From Actinopolymorpha singaporensis (lineage in GTDB: Bacteria > Actinomycetota > Actinomycetes > Propionibacteriales > Actinopolymorphaceae): DNA of 64,000 nt. Below, piece by piece: positions 38,431 through 63,641 of this stretch; positions within the stretch are counted from its first letter, which is position 1; the number at the start of each line of letters is the position of its first letter. The stretch covers positions 992,001 through 1,056,000 of the forward strand of contig NZ_LT629732.1 in the NCBI RefSeq assembly GCF_900104745.1, written 5' to 3'. Under the pieces are notes generated by a model. That model was not told the origin of the DNA. It was given only the letters and a program-made list of their open reading frames with translations, and ran no database searches. The position numbers were made by a program, and so were the translations under genes.

Positions 38431-38992
38431 GAAGCGAGGTCCCCGACGCGGAGATCGAACGTCCTACCGACATTCTCGTGCGGATCACCGCCGCCAACAT
38501 CTGCGGCTCGGACCTGCATATGTATGAGGGCCGGACCGACTTCGAAACCGGCCGCTGGTTCGGCCACGAGAACCTGGGCGAGGTCATTGAGGTCGGCGAT
38601 GGCGTCGACAAGGTGAAGGTCGGCGAGCGGGTGGTCCTGCCATTCAACATCTCCTGCGGGTTCTGCAAGAACTGCGAGCGCGGGTTCACCAACTACTGCC
38701 TGACCACCCAGCCGGACCCGAAGATGGCCGGCGCGGCCTACGGCTTCGCAGCAATGGGTCCGTGGGCAGGCGGGCAGGCTGAGCTGATGCGAGTGGCTGG
38801 CCGACATCTTCCCCACCAGCTACCACGCCACCGAGATGGCCGGGGTCGTCCCCGGCGACTCGGTGGTGATCTACGGCGCCGGTCCAGTGGGGCTGATGGC
38901 AGCGCTGTCGGCCACGATCAAGGGCGCCAGCAATGGTCGTCGACCGCCACCCGGACCGAATGCGGCTGGCCAAGGAACTGTCATGGCGGACC
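38431..38992 (+). pseudogene. Broken zinc-dependent formaldehyde/alcohol dehydrogenase gene
   Basis: Pieces in different plus-strand frames rebuild a medium-chain dehydrogenase of the glutathione-independent formaldehyde type. These are 'EVPDAEIERPTDILV', 'RITAANICGSDLHMYEGRTD', then 'CGFCKNCERG' (structural-zinc cysteines), 'ADIFPTSYHATEMAG' and 'VVIYGAGPVGLMAALSATIK' (NAD Rossmann). The N-terminus is missing, the segment between the structural-zinc loop and 'ADIFPT' is deleted, and the frame changes again at 'VVDRHPDRMRLAKEL', after which nothing remains. Several independent lesions show it is dead. Confidence 0.82.
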
Positions 38993-39217
38993 TCGACCAC
39001 AGCGCTGCAGGCCCGATGCCAAGTCCTGGGGCAAACGGGTTCGGACCAGCGATCGCGCGTGCCCCCAGCCACGCCGGCGGGTGTGTCAGCTTGACCGCTG
39101 CTCGACGGCTTCTGGATCGGCGACCGTGAATAGGGCGCGCCTTGACCGCTGCGGAGCGATGGACGACGCTCGAGGAATAGACACCCATCGCGGCACAATC
39201 TGCGCTTGTGCGGTCCG

Positions 39218-40321
39218 ATGACAGGTTCGCCAGAGGTCGCGGTGATCGGGGGCGGGATCGTTGGCCTCTCGACTGCGTACGCGTTACGTGAGCAGGGCGT
39301 CGCGGTGCGCCTGTACGAGACCGGTTTGCCCGGCGGCGGCCAGTCCGCCGGCGAGTCGCGAATCTTCCGGCATGCGCACGACGACCCTCGGCTCGTCGCG
39401 TTCGCGCGCAAGAGCCGCGGAGTGTGGGCTGAGTGGGCCGAACGGTTCAACGTCGAGCTGGTCTCATCAGATGGTGCGGTGGCAATCGGCGAAAGCGCGC
39501 TCGCGCGGCTGCGTGTGCTCGACCGTGTCGGCGGCGTGCCCGCGCGCGCGATCGATTCAGACGAGCTCGCCGAGCGAATGCCGCTGCTCGCTGGGTACTC
39601 CGGACCAGCGATGTTCGACGAGGCGGGCGGCGCGATCCGTACGCGCGCCACCATCAAAGCGCTCGCGGGTCAGCTCGGGGACGCCGTCGTAACTGGCGAG
39701 GTGGTCTCGATCGAACCCCGCGGCAGTAGGACGGTTGAGGTGCGTAGCGTCACCGACTGCGCTGTCTACTCGAATGTAGTCGTGTGCGCCGGCCGCGAAA
39801 CCGCACGCCTGGCGCGAAGCGTCGGCCTTTCGCTGCCAGTTCGCCTGGCCGCACACGTGCGGCTGACTTTCGCCGTGAAGGCCGCCGCCCCGGCGCGGGT
39901 CGCGTGCCTGCAGGACGGCAGCGGCGACTTCGGCGAAGTCGGCGTCTACGCGACGCCGCTGCCGGGCAACAGCCGCTATGCGGTCGGACTCAGCGAGACT
40001 GTCGGCGTCCGCGACGATGGGACGTTCATCGACCCGGCGGCAGTTCGATCACTGGACGAACGTGCACGCGATTACGTGGCACGGGCGCTGCCTGGCCTCG
40101 ACCCGGAGCCGCGCGAGTTTGTCCACTGCTGGGTGACCGACCTCCCGTGGAGTGAGGACGGCGTGGCCGTCTGGGAGGCAGGTCGAATCCTTTTCGTGGC
40201 CGGCCACAATCTCTTCAAGCAGGCACCATCACTGGGTCGCGCCCTCGCGCGGGCCACGACCGGCGACGGTCTCGCCGCCGAGCTCACGCCCGAGGCGCGC
40301 CTCGGCGAACCCCAGCAATAG
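39218..40321 (+). CDS. FAD-dependent oxidoreductase (DAO / sarcosine-oxidase-like)
   Basis: The 367-residue protein begins with the FAD dinucleotide fold 'VAVIGGGIVGLSTAYALREQ' and 'RLYETGLPGGGQSAGESRIF', followed by 'RHAHDDPRLVAFARKSRGVW' as in monomeric sarcosine and N-methyltryptophan oxidases. 'LFVAGHNLFKQAPSLGRALA' is the C-terminal FAD-binding end. It probably oxidises a secondary or primary amine with H2O2 release. The alternative TTG start at 39206 adds four residues. Codon use is slightly less GC-biased than in neighbours. Confidence 0.88.
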   Translation: MTGSPEVAVIGGGIVGLSTAYALREQGVAVRLYETGLPGGGQSAGESRIFRHAHDDPRLVAFARKSRGVWAEWAERFNVELVSSDGAVAIGESALARLRVLDRVGGVPARAIDSDELAERMPLLAGYSGPAMFDEAGGAIRTRATIKALAGQLGDAVVTGEVVSIEPRGSRTVEVRSVTDCAVYSNVVVCAGRETARLARSVGLSLPVRLAAHVRLTFAVKAAAPARVACLQDGSGDFGEVGVYATPLPGNSRYAVGLSETVGVRDDGTFIDPAAVRSLDERARDYVARALPGLDPEPREFVHCWVTDLPWSEDGVAVWEAGRILFVAGHNLFKQAPSLGRALARATTGDGLAAELTPEARLGEPQQ

Positions 40322-40861
40322 TTCCCGGGGACCCTTCGGGCGCCGCACTCAGGGAGTCGCTGCAAGCGGTCGGCGCGGAGCGGTGTGGTCGCTGCGGACG
40401 CGAGGGTCCCCGCGCGACAATGTGACCAGGTGACTTGCGTACGAGCCGTTGGGCTGGCGACCCGCCACCTGGTACCCGGTCCGCCGCTCCCGACTGACGC
40501 ACTCGCTGGAAACGTGGCGCCAAGACAGCAGCCGCGGCCGAACCTTGGGTGATGCCGTCACGGTGCGGGCTACGGTGGGCATCGAAGGCACCTGACCGTT
40601 GTCGGGACGCTGAGGGCCTCCACGTCACCTGGAACGCTTGCCTAGAACGCCGTTCTGCCGAGTTCGTTCCGCTCGGAGGGTCGCTATCCAGATACACCAT
40701 GGGCCTCTCCAAGAATGCTTGAAGAGCAGGAAGGCACCCGGTCAGGAGTTTCCAAGAATTTCCAAGGAATCGCGTCGACCGCGAGTGACTTTTGCTACCG
40801 GGTCGAACACAAGCCCAGATCATAAAGACATAAGACAACGCCCCAAGTAGCGTTGCCCGCC
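40322..40861. other. Intergenic region with hairpins and a direct repeat
   Basis: GGGGACCCT at 40327-40335 and AGGGTCCCC at 40403-40411 could form a stem just after the oxidase stop. TTTCCAAG occurs twice in tandem at about 40758-40776. CAACGC...GCGTTG forms a small hairpin immediately before the next ATG. No coding frame is convincing. The AT-rich stretch at about 40815-40835 may be a promoter. Confidence 0.45.
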
Positions 40862-41089
40862 ATGACGACCTGCCCGGACACCATCCCCGCCGTCGTCTAC
40901 CTGCGGACGGGCGACCAGTTGCAGGTCATCGCGTTCCGCGCCGGGATAAGCGACGGCGGGCTGATCCTGTACGAGCTGGCGCTGCAGGACGGCAGCCCGC
41001 TCCGCCTCGACGTCACCATGGTCGAGCGGGTGTGGCTGGAGCAGATGCCGGCCGGGTCGGCGGTCATCCTCGGGCGCTCCGACGCGTGA
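40862..41089 (+). CDS. Small hypothetical protein (75 aa)
   Basis: The product begins MTTCPDTIPAVVYLRTGDQL and forms a predicted all-beta small protein ('YELALQDGSPLRLDVTMVER' then 'VWLEQMPAGSAVILG'). It is coding-like with strong third-position GC, preceded by AT-rich DNA. No family is recognised. A hairpin (41093-41133) follows four bases after the stop. Confidence 0.55.
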   Translation: MTTCPDTIPAVVYLRTGDQLQVIAFRAGISDGGLILYELALQDGSPLRLDVTMVERVWLEQMPAGSAVILGRSDA

Positions 41090-41092
41090 AAC

Positions 41093-41397
41093 CGGCCCCG
41101 CGCCCTCGGGGTGATGTAGGGGACGCGGGGCCGACGGGTGGGCGGAGTGTGACGGGCCAACTTCGGGCCCACTTGTGGACGCGAACGACCCAGACACCGA
41201 TCGGTCACGGGTCGTGTCGCCCACGCAGGTCCGTCATTCCGGCTCCAAGATGAGAATCGGCCCCGCGCCCGGAGGGGGGAGGTGGGCGCGGGGCCGACAG
41301 GCGGACGGCCCGGGAGGTGGTTTGACAGTCACCGGGCGGCCGGCCTTGCCACGTGAACGACCCAGCCACCCATCAGTTACGGGTCGTACCACCGGTA
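41093..41397. repeat. Two tandem copies of a hairpin-rich unit (~165-172 bp period)
   Basis: Each copy starts with a perfect stem: 41093-41102/41124-41133 (CGGCCCCGCG/CGCGGGGCCG) and 41258-41270/41284-41296 (CGGCCCCGCGCCC/GGGCGCGGGGCCG). About 50-60 bases later each copy has a second stem: ACGACCC/GGGTCGT at 41185-41215 and 41357-41387. The second stem has a largely conserved internal sequence (CAG-CACC-ATC-GT). The first hairpin of copy 1 could terminate the 75-aa gene; the second stem of each copy, read on the minus strand, encodes the same '(H/Y)DP-stop'. The role is unknown. Confidence 0.65.
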
Positions 41398-41590
41398 CGC
41401 CACGAGACCGCCCGGAACGCCGCTTCGCAGTAGCCCCGACTCCTCCATCGCCTTGAGGTCGCGTGGCGGCAAGAAGTGGGCGGGATGATCACCAGTCGAC
41501 CAGAACCGCACACGGCCGGGCAGGCGCTGTGTGCCGAGCGGGCCTGCCACTGGCGAGTTTCGTTGGGAACCCCCAAGGTGGTGAGCGATC
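41377..41590 (-). pseudogene. C-terminal fragment of an unknown protein
   Basis: One minus-strand frame has clear coding character: 'RLPGRVRFWSTGDHPAHFLP', then 'PRDLKAMEESGLLRSGVPGG', then 'LVAYRWYDP' and TAA at 41377-41379. Upstream the signal disappears, and another frame ('RIGRPRTGHRVGSLTTLGVP') looks coding, so a frameshift near 41590 is likely. I cannot name the family. Confidence 0.4.
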
Positions 41591-41847
41591 CGACCCGGTG
41601 TCCGGTCCGTGGTCGCCCGATGCGCGCTGCGGTCGATCGAAATCGACGCATCCTGTCGATCACCGAGTTCGTTGCGTTGACCGGCTGAGTTTGCTCAAGA
41701 CGGGTGCGGTCCTGTCCTCTGTGGCCTCTCCAGCTGATAGGGCCGGGGTGTCTTCGTGGTACCACAACCAAAGTCTGCGCCTCGCCGTATGCGTGTAAGA
41801 AACGCCTGACCGGCCCGTCCTCCGCCGAGAGATGCCATGCAGGTGAA

Positions 41848-41909
41848 GCGGAGGGCATGGGATCGAACCCACGACCGAGAGGGGTCCCTCGGTAGCGGTT
41901 TTCAAGACC
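41848..41909 (-). tRNA. 3' half of a tRNA-Ser(UGA) gene, probable att site copy 1
   Basis: On the minus strand: a CTTGAAA anticodon loop (UGA), a long variable arm (CGAGGGACCCCTCTCG), a T-arm GTGGGTTCGATCCCAT and the acceptor end GCCCTCCGC. The 5' acceptor strand and D-arm are absent, so it is not a functional tRNA. It matches the copy at 52975 in about 51 of 54 bases in direct orientation, as expected for integration-site duplications. Confidence 0.85.
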
Positions 41910-41959
41910 CGAAGGACTTCGGGCTTGACCTGCGGCTTTCCCGAGCGCATGTCGTCAGC

Positions 41960-42170
41960 CGAGCCCATTCCCCGCGATGTTCTGTATCCTTCGCCGAGTT
42001 CGGTCTACAACTGGCAGGCCCACGGGCAGGTCCCTGCCCGCCGCAGTCCCGCTGGACGCTGGGTGCATCCCGTGGATTCCCGCCACCCAGGAGATCTACC
42101 GGCAGAAGGTCGCCAAGTCCTTCCGCCTCAAGCCTCGTCCGCCGCGCGTGAGCCCTCGCCCGAGGCGGCC
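41960..42170 (+). pseudogene. Possible excisionase-like helix-turn-helix remnant
   Basis: The plus-strand reading 'PSSVYNWQAHGQVPARRSPA' (then GRW) resembles the HTH of excisionase/MerR-type proteins. A neighbouring frame continues 'IPATQEIYRQKVAKSFRLKP'. There is no intact start or frame. It lies just inside the tRNA-fragment boundary, which is where an excision gene would be expected. Confidence 0.35.
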
Positions 42171-42326
42171 GCTCCCGGGCGAGCCGGCGCACCGCCGATC
42201 GACCCGCGACCTAACCGCCCAGGCGTACAAGAGCGACGTCTTGCCGCGGTGCGCGGGCGCCTGGTCACCGGACCGCCCACCCGTCGGGAACGCTTTGACT
42301 GTCGGTAGTTCCTTGCCGCAGAGGCA

Positions 42327-43400
42327 TCAGATGTCCTGATCAGGATCGTAGAAGAAGATGCTGGATGCGGCTTCCTGCTGGAAGAGCACGGAGGGCCACC
42401 ACGGCGCGTCCGGCGGAACCTGTACCACGGTGGCCCGCCGCTCCAGTTCCGCGGTGACGTCGTTGTCGAGGACGCTCCGGGCGGAAGGGGGCTGGTGCAT
42501 CAGGAAGCCGCGCGGACCGAGGTACAGGTAGCCGTCGATTCCCGGGTAGCCCTTGCCCGGATCCAGCGGCGCGTCTCCGGGCAGCGAGAAGTAGGAGGAG
42601 TCCAACTCGCCCAGCCAGGTGCCCTTGAAGGTGGTGAGCGACGGCACGGGCCAGGAGGCCATCCGCCGTTCCAGCTCGTCGTTGTCCTTCGCGAACCCGA
42701 GATGTCCGGTGATGACGAAGGTCGAGTTCGGATAGGTCTGCTCGTAGATCTCGGCGGCGCCCCTGCCGTGCCGCAGATGACCCGTCCCCATCAGGATGAG
42801 GGCCTTGCGTCGCTTCGAGAGCACCTCGCTCTCCAGCACGGAGGCGATGTGCTGGTCCCGGTCGGCGAGGAACGGGTAGAAGTCCGCGGGACTGGTCACT
42901 TTGCTCCAGTCGATTGGTGGTTCGCACGCCAGGACCCGCAGCTTCTTCGCACGGGGCAGCCGCTGGTTGATCCGGCGTACCAGGGGGTAGAGCTGTTCGT
43001 AGAAGGTCGAGTAGCTGCCGGCGGCGTTCAGGCCGTTGCGCCACACCTGCCGCACCTCGGCGAAGGGCACGTCCCCGCCCGCGATGTACTCGTCCAGCAT
43101 CGGTTGGTACAGCGAGTTGCCGTTCTCCGCGACGATGTCGGTCACGACGGACGGCAGGCGGGGGTTGCACACCAGGGAGATGAGGAATTCGTCGATATTC
43201 CGGACGCCGTGCGATGGGCTCAACCCGCCCACTATCGGGTAGGTGTTGAAGGCGGCCAGCATGGCGTCCTGAGCGCCCCGTGGAGCTGTTCCGGCAGGAG
43301 TGTCCTCGGCCCCCGCCGGACCGGCCAGTACAGCACCGGCCAGGGCGGTACCGGCAAGCATGGTTCCCCCGGCGCCTACCAGGAAGTTGCGACGTCGCAT
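42327..43400 (-). CDS. Tat-signal secreted protein of unknown function
   Basis: The 357-residue protein starts MRRRNFLVGAGGTMLAGTAL, a twin-arginine-type signal (R-R-N-F-L) followed by a hydrophobic core and an A-x-A cleavage site (PAGAED). The mature part is soluble: 'CNPRLPSVVTDIVAENGNSL', 'LVRRINQRLPRAKKLRVLAC', 'LILMGTGHLRHGRGAAEIY'. The last part, with GTGHLRHG, suggests a metal- or substrate-binding His cluster as in ChaN/TraB-like or erythromycin-esterase-like proteins, but I cannot assign it. Tat export implies folding or cofactor insertion before export. Confidence 0.75.
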   Translation of the reverse strand: MRRRNFLVGAGGTMLAGTALAGAVLAGPAGAEDTPAGTAPRGAQDAMLAAFNTYPIVGGLSPSHGVRNIDEFLISLVCNPRLPSVVTDIVAENGNSLYQPMLDEYIAGGDVPFAEVRQVWRNGLNAAGSYSTFYEQLYPLVRRINQRLPRAKKLRVLACEPPIDWSKVTSPADFYPFLADRDQHIASVLESEVLSKRRKALILMGTGHLRHGRGAAEIYEQTYPNSTFVITGHLGFAKDNDELERRMASWPVPSLTTFKGTWLGELDSSYFSLPGDAPLDPGKGYPGIDGYLYLGPRGFLMHQPPSARSVLDNDVTAELERRATVVQVPPDAPWWPSVLFQQEAASSIFFYDPDQDI

Positions 43401-46281: not shown

Positions 46282-46614
46282 CTACCAACAGGCGCCACGT
46301 CGGCCGGGCAGTGAACTAGCAGCGGGCAAGGCCGACGTATTGGACGGGGACGCCGGCGATCGGTCCTGACGCAGGCCGGAGACCACGATCGCGGCACAGG
46401 CCTGTTGGCGTTGCCCTGCCGCCACTACTACCCTCACCGCGTGCGCTGGCGGCTGGTGGTGCCCGCGGTGGCGAGGACGGCCCTCATGGCGGGTTGTTCG
46501 GTGGTCGACAACGGGCTGGCGGTACGGACGGGGATCGAGGACGTGCGCCGCACTCCCTCACAGACCGGACGGACGAGCGGCAGCTCGCCGCGATCGATCG
46601 AGGAGAGAGACCAG

Positions 46615-48222
46615 ATGCTGGGGCAGATGTCGGACCACCCGCTGACACTCATCCACGCGTTCAACCGCGCCGAGCGGCTGTTCGCCGAGAAGACGATCAC
46701 GACGCTGACGGCGACCGGGCGGGAGCGGCAGACCTACGGCGAGTGGGCGCGGCGGACGCGCCGGCTCGGCGGGGCGCTCGACGCGCTCGGCGTCGCGCCC
46801 GACGCGCGCGTCGGCACGTTCGCGTGGAACAGCGCGCGCCACCTGGAGCTGTACTTCGCGGTCCCGTGCAGCGGGCGCGTGCTGCACACACTGAACATCC
46901 GCCTGTTCCCCAAGCAGGTGACCTTCATCGTCAACCACGCCGAGGACGAGGTCGTATTCGTCGACCGCTCGCTGGCCGCGACGCTGCTGCCGCTGATCGC
47001 GGACGCGCCGGCGGTGCGCCACGTTGTAGTGATGGACGACGGCGCCGGCGAGGTGCCGGCCGACGATCGCATCATCGACTACGAGGCGCTGATCGGCGCG
47101 TCCCCGGCCATCGACTTCCACGTCGACGACGAGAACCAGGCCGCGGCCATGTGCTACACGAGCGGGACGACCGGCCACCCCAAAGGGGTTGTCTACTCGC
47201 ACCGCTCGACGGTGCTGCACTCGCTCGGCGTGATGCTGGCCGACACACTCGGCGTCAGCGAGCGGGACACGATCCTGCCGATCGTCCCGATGTTCCACGC
47301 CAACGCCTGGGGCCTGCCGTACGCGGCCGCGATGGCCGGCAGCGCGCTCGCGTTCCCTGGGCCACAGATGAGCCCGTCGGCGATCGCCGAACTGATCGAG
47401 CGCGAGCGCGTCACCTTGGCCGCCGGCGTGCCGACGATCTGGACGGCCGCGCTCGACGAGCTGCACGGCCGCGACCTGTCCGCGCTGCGGGCCGTCGTCT
47501 GCGGTGGGTCGGCCGTGCCGCAGGCGCTGTCGGAGGCATACGAACGGCGGCTCGGCCTGCCGATCCTGCAGGCGTGGGGCATGACCGAGACGAGCCCGGT
47601 CGGCTCCGTGTGCACGATCAAGAGCACGCTTGCCGACCTGCCCGCGGACGAGCTGGCGCGCCTGCGGGCAAGCCAGGGCGTGCCCATGCCGCTGGTGGAG
47701 GCGCGGATCGTTGAGCCCGGGACGACCCACGAGGTGGCGTGGAACGGCAGCGACCACGGCGAGTTGGAGGTCGTCGGGCCGTGGGTCGCGGCCTCCTACT
47801 ACGGCGCCGAAGGCGACCGTGGAGCGTCGTTCACCAAGGACGGCTGGCTGCGGACCGGCGACGTCGCCACGATCTCGCCCGACGGATACATCCGGCTCGT
47901 CGACCGCACCAAGGACCTCGTGAAGTCCGGCGGGGAGTGGATCTCCTCCGTCGAGCTGGAGAACGCGATCATGGCCCACCCCGCGGTGCTGGAGGCGGCG
48001 GTGATCGCAGTGCCCGACGAGCGGTGGGGCGAGCGCCCACTGGCCTGCGTGGTCCGCGCGGACGACCATGCGCTGACCGCGGACGACCTCCGCGCGTTCC
48101 TGTCGTCGCGCGTCGCACGCTGGTGGATCCCCGAGCGGGTCGAGTTCATCGACGAGGTCCCCAAGACCTCGGTCGGGAAGTTCTCCAAGAAGACGCTGCG
48201 GGAGCGGTTCGGGGCGGGCTAA
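46615..48222 (+). CDS. Fatty-acyl-CoA synthetase (AMP-forming)
   Basis: The 535-residue ANL-superfamily enzyme has the AMP-binding loop 'MCYTSGTTGHPKGVVYSHRS', 'FHANAWGLPYAAAMAG', the 'QAWGMTETSPV' motif, 'DGWLRTGDVATISPDGYIRL', 'VDRTKDLVKSGGEWISSVEL' and the catalytic Lys in 'VPKTSVGKFSKKTLRERF'. These are hallmarks of medium/long-chain acyl-CoA ligases. ATG 46615 has AGGAGA at 46601 upstream; the frame is open before it but without coding character. Codon use is more uniformly GC-rich with frequent 'gacgcg' pattern than in neighbours, perhaps from a different donor. No beta-oxidation genes are beside it. Confidence 0.92.
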   Translation: MLGQMSDHPLTLIHAFNRAERLFAEKTITTLTATGRERQTYGEWARRTRRLGGALDALGVAPDARVGTFAWNSARHLELYFAVPCSGRVLHTLNIRLFPKQVTFIVNHAEDEVVFVDRSLAATLLPLIADAPAVRHVVVMDDGAGEVPADDRIIDYEALIGASPAIDFHVDDENQAAAMCYTSGTTGHPKGVVYSHRSTVLHSLGVMLADTLGVSERDTILPIVPMFHANAWGLPYAAAMAGSALAFPGPQMSPSAIAELIERERVTLAAGVPTIWTAALDELHGRDLSALRAVVCGGSAVPQALSEAYERRLGLPILQAWGMTETSPVGSVCTIKSTLADLPADELARLRASQGVPMPLVEARIVEPGTTHEVAWNGSDHGELEVVGPWVAASYYGAEGDRGASFTKDGWLRTGDVATISPDGYIRLVDRTKDLVKSGGEWISSVELENAIMAHPAVLEAAVIAVPDERWGERPLACVVRADDHALTADDLRAFLSSRVARWWIPERVEFIDEVPKTSVGKFSKKTLRERFGAG

Positions 48223-52974: not shown

Positions 52975-53030
52975 GCGGAGGGCATGGATTCGAACCCATG
53001 ACCGAGAGGGGTCCCTCGGTAGCGGTTTCA
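52975..53030 (-). tRNA. 3' half of a tRNA-Ser(UGA) gene, probable att site copy 2
   Basis: On the minus strand: CTGAAACCGC (end of the anticodon arm), a variable arm CGAGGGACCCCTCTCG, a T-arm ATGGGTTCGAATCCAT and acceptor end GCCCTCCGC. The 5' half is absent. It is a direct repeat of 41848-41909 with three mismatches in 54 bases. Confidence 0.85.
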
Positions 53031-54334: not shown

Positions 54335-55603
54335 ATGGGTGACGAGAGCACAGCTGCATCGGATCTGGGCCTTACGGCAGAACAGGTGGCCGATCAGACG
54401 GCCCGGTTGATAGGGCCTGATGCGGAGCTGGAGCAGCCGTCGCAGGACCAGGATGCTGCGATCGACGGCGACGAGCCGGACCAGGACCACAACGCTCCGG
54501 CGCCTGGGCTGCACCGGGAGAAGCCAGCGGTGAGAGCTCGTGTCGGTGAGGTCGTGGACCTTGCCCGCAGGCAGTTGGGGATCGGGGAGGATCCCCCCGG
54601 GAGCAACCGCAACAAGTTCACCTCGTGGTACGGCACACCGACGGCATGGTGCGCGATCTTCGTGCGGTGGAACTTCGTCAACCCCGAGGGGTTCCCGTCG
54701 GGGTGGTCCGACTCCGAGCTGAACCCGAACTCGGCGTACTGCCCCGCAGTCGCGAAGTGGTATCAGCAGCAGCGCCAGTGGATCAGGATCGGACACGGTG
54801 CTCCCCGACCCGGTGACCAGGTCTTCTTCGACTGGACACGTGGACGCTCCGGCAGTGGCTACAACCACACAGGGCTGGTCGAGGCCGTCCACGCCGACGG
54901 CACTGTGACCACCATCGAGGGGAACTGGTCGGACGGCGTCCGGCGGGTCCGGCGTACGAGCTACTACATCGTCGGGTTCGGACGCCCCACCTACGATGAC
55001 TCCACCCCTGTGCCTCCCGAGCCCACACACCCGGCCCGATACAAAGTGAAGATCGCGGGGCTTGAGTACGGCTACGGCGCGGCCGGCAGCCAGGTAGCCG
55101 AGCTCGGCAAAGCTCTGGTGGCCAAAGGCTTCGGCAAGCACTACACGAACGGGCCCGGCCCGCGGTGGACCGACGCCGACACCGAAAACTACAGCGACTT
55201 CCAGAAGTCCCTCGGCCTGTCCGGCCGCGATGCCGACGGCGTTCCAGGCCCCGACAGCCTCAAGAAGCTCCTCGGCCACCTACCCACCATCACACCGAAA
55301 CGACCAGATCACATCGTCGACCTCGCCCAACTGGTCAGCGCCGCTGAGCAGGACCCCGCCCGCAAGCAGGGCGGCACCACTCCCGGATCAGCCGACGACG
55401 TACGACTCGTCGAAGACGCACTCCACCGCGAAGGCCTGCTCGCACAGACCTACGCCGGGGACGGCAGCTTCGGATCGACCACCGTGCAGGCCTACCGCAA
55501 ATGGCAGCTCCGCTGCGGTTACAGCGGCAAAGACGCCGACGGAATCCCCGGCAAGGACTCCCTCACACGCCTCGGCAAGAAATACGGCTTCACCGTTAAG
55601 TAG
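54335..55603 (+). CDS. CHAP-domain peptidoglycan hydrolase-like protein with PG-binding repeats
   Basis: The 422-residue protein has an acidic disordered N-terminus (1-60) with no signal peptide. A CHAP/NlpC-like domain (about 65-220) follows: 'LGIGEDPPGSNRNKFTSWYG', the Cys nucleophile in 'TAWCAIFVRW', His in 'YNHTGLVEAVHADGTVTTIE', then 'GNWSDGVRR'. Two peptidoglycan-binding repeats end in 'GLSGRDADGVPGPDSLKKLL' (about 315) and 'GYSGKDADGIPGKDSLTRLG' (about 410). This is an endolysin layout. The absent signal suggests release by lysis or a holin-like route, so a phage-derived origin is likely. Confidence 0.85.
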   Translation: MGDESTAASDLGLTAEQVADQTARLIGPDAELEQPSQDQDAAIDGDEPDQDHNAPAPGLHREKPAVRARVGEVVDLARRQLGIGEDPPGSNRNKFTSWYGTPTAWCAIFVRWNFVNPEGFPSGWSDSELNPNSAYCPAVAKWYQQQRQWIRIGHGAPRPGDQVFFDWTRGRSGSGYNHTGLVEAVHADGTVTTIEGNWSDGVRRVRRTSYYIVGFGRPTYDDSTPVPPEPTHPARYKVKIAGLEYGYGAAGSQVAELGKALVAKGFGKHYTNGPGPRWTDADTENYSDFQKSLGLSGRDADGVPGPDSLKKLLGHLPTITPKRPDHIVDLAQLVSAAEQDPARKQGGTTPGSADDVRLVEDALHREGLLAQTYAGDGSFGSTTVQAYRKWQLRCGYSGKDADGIPGKDSLTRLGKKYGFTVK

Positions 55604-61989: not shown

Positions 61990-62529
61990 TCAATTGCGTT
62001 GACCACAGATGTCGATGCGGATCAGATGTGTCCACCGCCGGTGGACTTGGACTTGGCCGGAGCGTGCGTAGCAGGTGGAGCCGAGGGACCGGATGCGTTC
62101 CTCGACGTCTTCCACGCAGATCCCGCCGACCAGGACCATCCAGGCTCGTTCACCGACCCTTGTGGGGTAGATGAACAGCAGCCACGGCAGCCTGCCGGAC
62201 CGGTTGCGGAGCCCGTTCTCGGCCATGAAGGTGCGCAGCCGGTGCCGGGTCACGTCGACCCAGAACACCGCCACGAGGATCCTGCCCGAGTACGGCACCA
62301 CCAGGGCGACGGCGACGGGTGCGACGATCACTGACCCGGCTGCCCAGGCGGGCAGGTTCATCCGGACCAGATACACGAACACCGTCGCCGTAGTGCCGGC
62401 CAGCGCCAGTTCCGGCAGCCACCGCCAAAACGCGAGAAGCAGCTGCGCACCCCACCGTTGGTGGATGCGGGGTTTGACGTTCTCCACCGCACGAGCCCGG
62501 TTACTGCGGCCACCTCGCTTACGCGGCAT
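61990..62529 (-). CDS. Membrane protein of a conjugative element (SpdB-like)
   Basis: The 179-residue protein has a basic N-terminus (MPRKRGGRSNRARAV), two adjacent transmembrane helices (about 38-62 and 68-88), and a cytoplasmic C-terminus ('TRHRLRTFMAENGLRNRSGR'). This size and layout, next to an acidic partner, resemble spread/transfer-associated (Spd/Tra-type) proteins of actinomycete integrative elements. The ATG overlaps the stop of the upstream gene, indicating coupling. Confidence 0.7.
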   Translation of the reverse strand: MPRKRGGRSNRARAVENVKPRIHQRWGAQLLLAFWRWLPELALAGTTATVFVYLVRMNLPAWAAGSVIVAPVAVALVVPYSGRILVAVFWVDVTRHRLRTFMAENGLRNRSGRLPWLLFIYPTRVGERAWMVLVGGICVEDVEERIRSLGSTCYARSGQVQVHRRWTHLIRIDICGQRN

Positions 62530-63091
62530 CGTCGCCACCTCCATGGATGTCGGAGGCGGTTGCTTTGGCGATGTCGTCGAGGGCGGCTTGGGCCTTGTAG
62601 AAGGTCTTGTGGACCTGGCCCGTCTTGAACGCGTTCTGACCGAAGATCGCGCACACCACTTCGGCGGCACGGTCCCGTTCGCCGGCGATCGTCGCCGTCA
62701 TCGCGGTCGCATCTTTGAAGACGGCCTCGCCCTGGCGGCAGTCCATGTCCGCATCGAACTCGCGGGCATCGTTGAGAACCTGCTCCTGCACCTTCAGTTC
62801 CGCGGCCATCCAGTCGACCGCCTGGCGCAGGTGCTCATACACCGCCATCAGCCGGTAACCACGCAGCAGCATCTGCCGCAACGCCCAGCTCAAACCGGCG
62901 ATGTCATCGAGGTCATCGATGTCGTCGTCTGACTCAGCCTCCGGCTCCTCGGCCGGCTCATCGGCGAGCCCGTTGGTGTTGGTTGTGAACTCGTGATCAG
63001 CGCCATTGGGCGCGTCAGCCGGAGTGTCCTGAGGGGTCATCGGGTCCCGGTACGGGTCCTCAGGCGACTGGTTGTAGGTAGCATCAGACAT
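62519..63091 (-). CDS. Acidic conserved protein of an actinomycete conjugative element
   Basis: The 190-residue protein has a disordered acidic N-terminus (about 1-65, 'EPEAESDDDIDDLDDIAGLS') and a helical body with 'QMLLRGYRLMAVYEHLRQAV' and 'FGQNAFKTGQVHKTFYKAQA'. No enzymatic motif. It is most likely an adaptor in the transfer module. It is translationally coupled to the membrane protein gene downstream, and follows hairpins at 63127-63235. Confidence 0.7.
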   Translation of the reverse strand: MSDATYNQSPEDPYRDPMTPQDTPADAPNGADHEFTTNTNGLADEPAEEPEAESDDDIDDLDDIAGLSWALRQMLLRGYRLMAVYEHLRQAVDWMAAELKVQEQVLNDAREFDADMDCRQGEAVFKDATAMTATIAGERDRAAEVVCAIFGQNAFKTGQVHKTFYKAQAALDDIAKATASDIHGGGDDAA

Positions 63092-63126
63092 GCCACAGCC
63101 CTCCTCATCAGGGTGTGTGGAAGGCA

Positions 63127-63163
63127 GAGAGCCGGAAGGTTTCCAGGCCTTGTTCCGGCTCTC
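63127..63163. terminator. Hairpin A between two element genes
   Basis: GAGAGCCGGAA pairs with TTCCGGCTCTC (perfect 11-bp stem, 15-base loop). It lies about 36 bases upstream of the acidic-protein start (minus strand), so it could attenuate transcription from the gene at 63.6 kb. Confidence 0.55.
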
Positions 63164-63176
63164 CGCCGTCTGTGGG

Positions 63177-63200
63177 GAGCGGCCCCTTCGGGGGCCGCTC
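63177..63200 (+). terminator. Hairpin B: strong stem with TTCG loop
   Basis: GAGCGGCCCC-TTCG-GGGGCCGCTC is a perfect 10-bp stem with a stable UUCG-type tetraloop followed by TTCT on the plus strand. It is the best terminator-like structure in the window. On the minus strand it would sit between genes 63.6 and 63.1 kb. Confidence 0.75.
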
Positions 63201-63218
63201 TTCTACTTGTTGTGGATC

Positions 63219-63235
63219 GCGCCGCTCAGCGGCGC
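63219..63235. promoter_or_regulatory. Hairpin C
   Basis: GCGCCGC-TCA-GCGGCGC is a perfect 7-bp stem with a 3-base loop, in series with hairpins A and B. Confidence 0.45.
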
Positions 63236-63320
63236 CACCTGCCCACGATTGGCAGGCTGCTCAACGGTTGGGCACTCGAACTCGAAGGGTGTCTCGGCGT
63301 TCACAGCTGTGACTGGGGGT

Positions 63321-63641
63321 TCAGGCCGCCTTGACCGCCTGCTTGGCCTCCAGCGCCTTCGCACGGAAGGCGACACCGTTCCGGCCGCCCGTCGCCCACG
63401 GGATGGCTTCCAGCTCGACCGGGGTAACGGACTGCCCCACGGCCACCTTCGGCGGTGCACCCGCCACAGTGATCGTGATGATGTCCGCCCCGGACTCAGG
63501 TTCGAGCGCCATCACCTGCACAACGAACAACAACTCACCGGTCCTCCGATCCGCCTTGTGCCGACCATCCTGATCAGTCTTCGGCTCCGCCGCCTTCGTC
63601 ACCGTGAACGTGTGAACCGAGGTATCGACGATCAACTTCAT
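63321..63641 (-). CDS. Small conserved regulator-like protein of a conjugative element
   Basis: The 106-residue protein starts 'MKLIVDTSVHTFTVTKAAEP' and continues 'ADRRTGELLFVVQVMALEPE', 'DIITITVAGAPPKVAVGQSV', all-beta, as in the SCO3932/SCO3933-like small proteins encoded near the replication-transfer region of actinomycete integrative and conjugative elements. Its function is uncertain (regulatory or single-strand-DNA-binding-like are proposed by fold). AAGGGAG precedes the start. Confidence 0.8.
   Translation of the reverse strand: MKLIVDTSVHTFTVTKAAEPKTDQDGRHKADRRTGELLFVVQVMALEPESGADIITITVAGAPPKVAVGQSVTPVELEAIPWATGGRNGVAFRAKALEAKQAVKAA

Follow-up and report, generated by a model that had tools for sequence, protein, structure and literature searches.

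The locus analysed here raises the question of what a short, hairpin-rich unit represents when it occurs in two neighbouring copies beside a fragment of a tRNA gene. The unit lies in a window of 64,000 nucleotides (positions 992001-1056000 of a 6.4-Mb single-contig genome), and terminators, a structured RNA, duplicated gene ends and a site of a mobile element are all candidate explanations. We interpret it as a duplicated intergenic terminator region, in which the 3' end of a plus-strand orphan gene faces the end of a doubtful or decayed minus-strand gene, and would give this interpretation a probability of about 0.64. The features of the unit, together with those of the nearby tRNA-Ser site, are collected in Table 1.

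Table 1. Features of the repeat unit and its surroundings, in window positions
Feature	Position	Strand	Remark
Copy 1 of hairpin pair (A + B)	41093-41220
Copy 2 of hairpin pair (A + B)	41257-41392
Hairpin A, copy 1 (A1)	41093..41133	either	13-nt arms, 92% complementary
Hairpin A, copy 2 (A2)	41257..41297	either	14-bp perfect stem; 14-nt arms, 100% complementary
Hairpin B, copy 1 (B1)	41180..41220	either	core ACGACCC/GGGTCGT
Hairpin B, copy 2 (B2)	41352..41392	either
Orphan ORF	40862..41089	+	75 codons from ATG; 78 codons from TTG at 40853
10-codon frame MTDLRGRHDP-stop	41205..41237	-	GGAG 5 bases before ATG
Open frame ending ...GGLVAYRWYDP-stop within B2	41377..41694	-	putative gene relic
tRNA-Ser(TGA) 3' fragment	41848-41909	-	~450 bp from unit; probable attachment-site relic
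Second tRNA-Ser(TGA) 3' fragment	52975-53028		same direction as intact gene
Intact tRNA-Ser(TGA) gene	76690-76782 (window-equivalent; L029:12690-12782)		ARAGORN: tRNA-Ser(tga)

The repeat unit and its reading frames

Each copy consists of a strong GC hairpin, A, and a weaker hairpin, B, which follows ~50 bases further on (the A-to-B gap is 46-54 bases). The repeat finder reported inverted repeats at 41093-41133 and 41257-41297, as well as two families of direct repeats, one for stem A (41098-41145 and 41261-41308, 71% over 48 nt, 163 from start to start) and one for stem B (41179-41215 and 41351-41387, 86% over 37 nt, 172 from start to start). Within these, GGCCCCGCG is found at 41094 and 41259, 165 apart, and AACGACCC at 41184 and 41356. 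Comparison of the copies by blastn gave two matches, with E values of 5.6e-7 (37 bp, 86%) and 2.4e-5 (57 bp, 77%). When single copies were used as queries against 104 kb of the same genome plus a separate 5.5-kb stretch, each recovered its partner at E values of 5.6e-7 to 3.0e-5, and the likeness of the copies is therefore beyond chance. The tandem repeat claimed in the sequence-only reading was thus recovered, as two direct copies, by both the repeat finder and blastn. The left flanks of the copies are weakly alike (6.5% of 400 shuffles were equal) and their right flanks share no homology (76% of shuffles equal). We infer that both copies derive from one duplication event.

Hairpin A1 begins 3 bases past the stop codon of the orphan ORF. 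Based on its codon-position GC, this ORF is strongly coding-like (third-position GC of 0.99, and GC by codon phase of 0.40/1.00/0.75 over 40960-41079). No relatives other than the ORF itself were found in 8 genomes of the family and 394 of the class, and none in IMG/VR, plasmids, phages, or GTDB contigs. Similarly, the encoded protein had no match in Pfam, PHROGs, NCBIfam, PADLOC, or PDB sequences, and an AlphaFold model of the protein alone was poor (pLDDT of 58.8).

On the minus strand, stem B encodes HDP-stop (CAC GAC CCG TGA) in one copy and YDP-stop (TAC GAC CCG TAA) in the other, so that the "(H/Y)DP-stop" previously noticed in the second stem of both copies is correct. The 10-codon frame ending in B1 may be due to chance, or may be the relic of a duplicated gene end. 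The longer frame that ends in B2 has a weak coding signature near its end, as judged by codon-position GC, and has no Pfam family and no known relative. A search with the minus-strand peptide returned 36 of 374 genomes at E ≤0.01, its own included, where ~4 were expected; the best outside match had an E value of 2.7e-4, and the targets were long, unrelated frames. We read the excess as composition bias, which does not in itself prove the absence of relatives. An origin of the copies as duplicated gene ends, one of the options offered earlier, is possible. It is a weak candidate, given that the likeness between the left flank of copy 2 and the end of the orphan ORF is equalled by the 6.5% of shuffles mentioned above, and that the minus-strand gene is without a known relative.

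Conservation, folding, and distribution of the hairpins

Between the two copies, 23 of the 25 named stem pairs are invariant, one is altered on both sides (C-G to T-A), and one is broken on the plus strand. It had been proposed that paired-base changes which keep the stems point to selection for structure. However, the changes amount to the one two-sided pair in 25, and because covariation equal to that observed was reached in 253 of 500 shuffles, they provide no evidence for such selection. Paired letters are identical at 47 of 50 positions versus 44 of 89 for unpaired letters, a contrast that is partly built in, given that the stems served as anchors in aligning the copies. Conservation also extends to the loop of B, beyond its stems. 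If one more outer pair is added to stem B, minus-strand RNA holds 14/14 pairs in both copies, whereas plus-strand RNA, counted likewise, holds 12/14 in copy 2; this strand preference comes from two one-sided changes, and the chance that a coin toss would put both on the side of the minus strand is one in four.

As minus-strand RNA, all four hairpins folded better than shuffled sequences (z of -3.55 for A1, -2.66 for B1, -5.73 for A2, and -2.61 for B2). As plus-strand RNA, A1 (-2.35), A2 (-4.61), and B1 (-2.38) did so, and B2 was no better than its shuffles (z of -0.93, with 33 of 200 equal). The energies of A1 and A2 are -29.7 and -35.0 kcal/mol on the plus strand and -29.0 and -33.8 kcal/mol on the minus strand, while hairpin B reaches -23.3 kcal/mol at best (copy 1, minus strand) and is otherwise between -11.9 and -19.8 kcal/mol. 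The 14 perfect pairs of A2 form the longest perfect stem in 104 kb (loops of 3-30), and A2 accounts for two of the five strand sites at or below -33 kcal/mol in the same 104 kb.

Within the searches made, the unit appears to be found only in its own genome. This was the single genome hit among six of the genus in a DNA search, and the single one among eight of the family with the exact B pattern. Exact-pattern scans of IMG/VR and GTDB contigs, sets that may omit records of the own genome, returned nothing, as did a scan of IMG/VR with the exact hairpin-A pattern and a search of 72,556 plasmid and 50,697 phage records. A covariance model, R1, built from the two copies only, matched 10 genomes besides its own at E ≤0.05 among 394 of the class, where ~20 are expected by chance, and one besides its own among 38 relatives, where ~2 are expected. 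Homologous copies elsewhere, to which the sequence-only reading had looked for a check, were therefore not seen in the relatives, the class genomes, or (by exact pattern) GTDB contigs and IMG/VR, using searches that divergent copies could escape through the exact collection scans, the two-sequence model, and the stricter filters applied above 40 genomes.

The stem-B pattern alone matched 22 places in 13 of the 394 class genomes, compared to six for the backwards control. Two of these are the copies described here, nine are one sequence in a single genome (G139) with a different loop, and 11 are scattered, 10 of them inside open frames that are 179-942 codons long. The remaining one (L012, in G121) consists of a stop codon followed by AACGACCC-GCACC...GGT-ACGGGTCGT and then TTTT. 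It has the same ACGACCC/GGGTCGT arms as B and an inner stem, CACC...GGT (ACC/GGT), similar to that of B. No hairpin A was seen in the 120-200 bases shown around it, and we have taken it as a like structure only, and not as a homologue of B. A looser B pattern matched two IMG/VR contigs, in both cases within open frames, and these were set aside. The nine G139 loci (L008 and L017-L024) are near-identical palindromes of the form AACGACCC...ACGGGTCGT that are spread genome-wide outside long open frames, and are perhaps part of a repeated mobile element.

Comparison with known terminators

In the parts of the S. clavuligerus study that deal with structured 3' ends (PMC8269248), such ends are defined by a cut of -23 kcal/mol for the 40 bases that precede them, and are divided into U-rich ends, with at least 3 U in 8 bases, and U-lacking ends that are likened to I-shaped terminators; bidirectional 3' ends are described there for some units in Streptomyces. 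The comparative data excerpted from PMC12207403 likewise give Streptomyces terminators few U and the most stable hairpins among the species compared. Measured against an energy of about -23 kcal/mol or lower, hairpin A qualifies on both strands, and hairpin B does so in copy 1 on the minus strand alone. The 8 bases after A1 and A2 contain 3 and 4 T, respectively, on the minus strand and 1 and 0 on the plus strand; hairpin B is followed by 0-1 T on either strand. A1 is positioned directly downstream of a stop codon; a corresponding gene for A2, or on the minus strand, is doubtful.

Our reading of the unit as a duplicated terminator region draws on these published classes of 3' ends, the properties of hairpin A, and L012. 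L012 itself looks like a textbook terminator, and its sequence shows that a terminator stem can be built from B-like arms. The region is presumably transcribed, with transcripts ending at the unit. The GC stem of ~14 pairs that A forms in RNA of either strand would halt RNA polymerase or shield the 3' end. A modest T stretch follows this stem on the minus strand; in plus-strand RNA, A would be either a terminator of the U-poor (I-shaped) type or a protector of the RNA end. Hairpin B would be an auxiliary stem that overlaps the minus-strand stop, and the terminator-like pair of A and B would have been duplicated once in tandem.

The unit thus has in common with the U-lacking, or I-shaped, terminators of Streptomyces, as they are outlined in PMC8269248 and PMC12207403, a long GC stem after a stop codon, few U, and a very low energy. 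It differs from them in its tandem duplication and its second hairpin, and termination is deduced here from sequence. The loop of A, which is ~11-21 nt depending on how the stem is counted, is longer than the 4-8 nt given as the optimum for E. coli. Like hairpin-cluster terminators, the unit places several hairpins downstream of a stop codon, but, according to the definition excerpted from PMC8355165, hairpins of a cluster are <15 bases apart, whereas A and B are separated by the gap given above. All four hairpins escaped a simple terminator scan, probably owing to its limits on loop and T-run length.

Stable windows of 41 nt are common in this DNA: 104 kb, scanned in steps of 2 bases, contained 217 strand sites of -23 kcal/mol or lower, 20 of which have at least 3 T after the closing stem. 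In a blind scan at -28 kcal/mol with the T criterion, A2 passed on the minus strand, A1 failed, and three other sites passed. Among the options raised earlier, terminators fit best, with A1 directly behind the orphan ORF and A resembling the Streptomyces ends, while the structured-RNA option did not hold up within the searches described. The repeat is real, ordinary in kind, and has little significance by itself; it would be an example of a terminator region duplicated beside a tRNA integration hot spot.

The tRNA-Ser site and alternative explanations

The tRNA fragment noted beside the repeat is indeed a tRNA-Ser fragment. Together with the second fragment, it is co-directional with the intact gene, and the two are probable relics of repeated element insertion. 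A fourth tRNA-Ser match covers genome positions 1690632-1690691, at which no gene is called by ARAGORN. Partial tRNA matches besides the best one are present in all five of the other genus genomes, including seven within 95 kb before the best match in G003. Some of the low-identity matches may be other genes for tRNA-Ser. The tRNA-Ser site seems to gather elements. Actinomycete elements are known to integrate in tandem at tRNA genes, and the AICE examples described in PMC3218068 share with this site 3' tRNA fragments that are co-directional with the intact gene. In contrast to those repeats, the unit is beyond the outermost fragment found, and not between the two, and no integrase is recognised beside it. 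No attachment repeat was found to the left of the unit, up to 20 kb before the window. An acyl-CoA synthetase-like gene (46405-48222) is situated between the two fragments, and in two relatives homologues of its DNA are separated from the outermost fragment by 0.2 kb (G004) and 6 kb (G005); gene order around the tRNA site has been reshuffled here. When 40322-42327 was compared by blastn with ten stretches from five relatives, the tRNA fragment was matched, and otherwise only 16-31 bases at E values of at least 0.026.

Given this setting, the unit could be a cis-acting DNA site of an integrated mobile element, such as a replication origin repeat, a transfer site, or an attachment arm, whose hairpins are recognised as DNA by an element protein. 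The tRNA-Ser fragments and intact gene that mark repeated insertion, the SCO3933-family-like gene at 63321-63641 (70.1 bits, with a cut-off of 80), and the conservation of the B loop past its stems are consistent with such a site. However, in 32 of the 33 open stretches of at least 45 aa at 40300-42400 there is no Pfam family at cut-off (below it are Amastin, at E 0.084, and Zn_ribbon_SprT, at 0.21), and among these no integrase, replication, or transfer gene was recognised next to the unit. With the location of the unit outside the outermost fragment, and no counterpart among the plasmid, phage, and IMG/VR records searched, we regard an element site as unlikely. Another explanation, that one short repeat was inserted twice, independently, and not duplicated in tandem, draws on the A-B spacers, whose alignment between the copies is matched by 15.7% of 2000 shuffles and so is at chance level. 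It is quite unlikely, as no third copy was found in the genome by DNA, pattern, or covariance-model search. The orphan ORF and the two A-B units might also be left over from a small element or regulatory cassette of an undescribed kind. The orphan protein, or a protein of the element, would then recognise the hairpins as nucleic-acid structures, and they would not merely be terminators. We consider this improbable; if true, the gain would be an orphan protein that targets a nucleic acid.

A trans-acting or riboswitch-like structured RNA in two copies would account for strong stems on both strands, and for stems that are kept while spacers vary. No Rfam family matched in the window at gathering score. 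Under permissive settings, 40300-42400 returned four weak matches, the best at the unit being ar14, over copy 2, with 22.8 bits versus a gathering score of 58.8. A permissive match to tRNA-Sec was discarded; it corresponds to the tRNA-Ser fragment, and the intact gene is called tRNA-Ser(tga). Because no homologues were found in the genomes searched, the R1 matches elsewhere not being above chance, and because only one pair is compensatory, this explanation failed the tests of homology and covariation set for it, and is in our view highly improbable; the conservation of hairpins in GC-rich DNA argues only weakly for a structured RNA. Finally, the minus-strand frame MTDLRGRHDP-stop, with a GGAG ahead of its ATG and a stop that falls in B1, might be a leader peptide with an attenuator hairpin. 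Next on the minus strand, however, is the antisense of the orphan ORF, so that there is no apparent gene to regulate; by eye, copy 2 lacks an ATG at the matching place, and ten codons could easily arise by chance. A leader peptide is thus extremely unlikely, and we retain the duplicated terminator region as the preferred interpretation.

Several other features of the neighbourhood may be mentioned. On the minus strand, 40352-40624 resembles an MLTR_LBD regulator domain (E of 0.017, and 15.6 bits versus a cut-off of 26.3), and is perhaps a gene relic or a chance match. A 247-aa frame at 38478-39221, of which residues 2-111 alone match ADH_N (alcohol dehydrogenase), is possibly a broken gene. 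The SCO3933-family-like gene is one of two minus-strand genes at 62519-63641 that have strong hairpins between them (63127-63163 and 63177-63200), and the pair is probably part of an integrative element. Lastly, an endolysin-like protein (PHROG 9589, E of 1.1e-48) with a peptidoglycan-binding domain (NF038080) is encoded at 54335-55603, with the second tRNA fragment on one side and the intact tRNA gene on the other.
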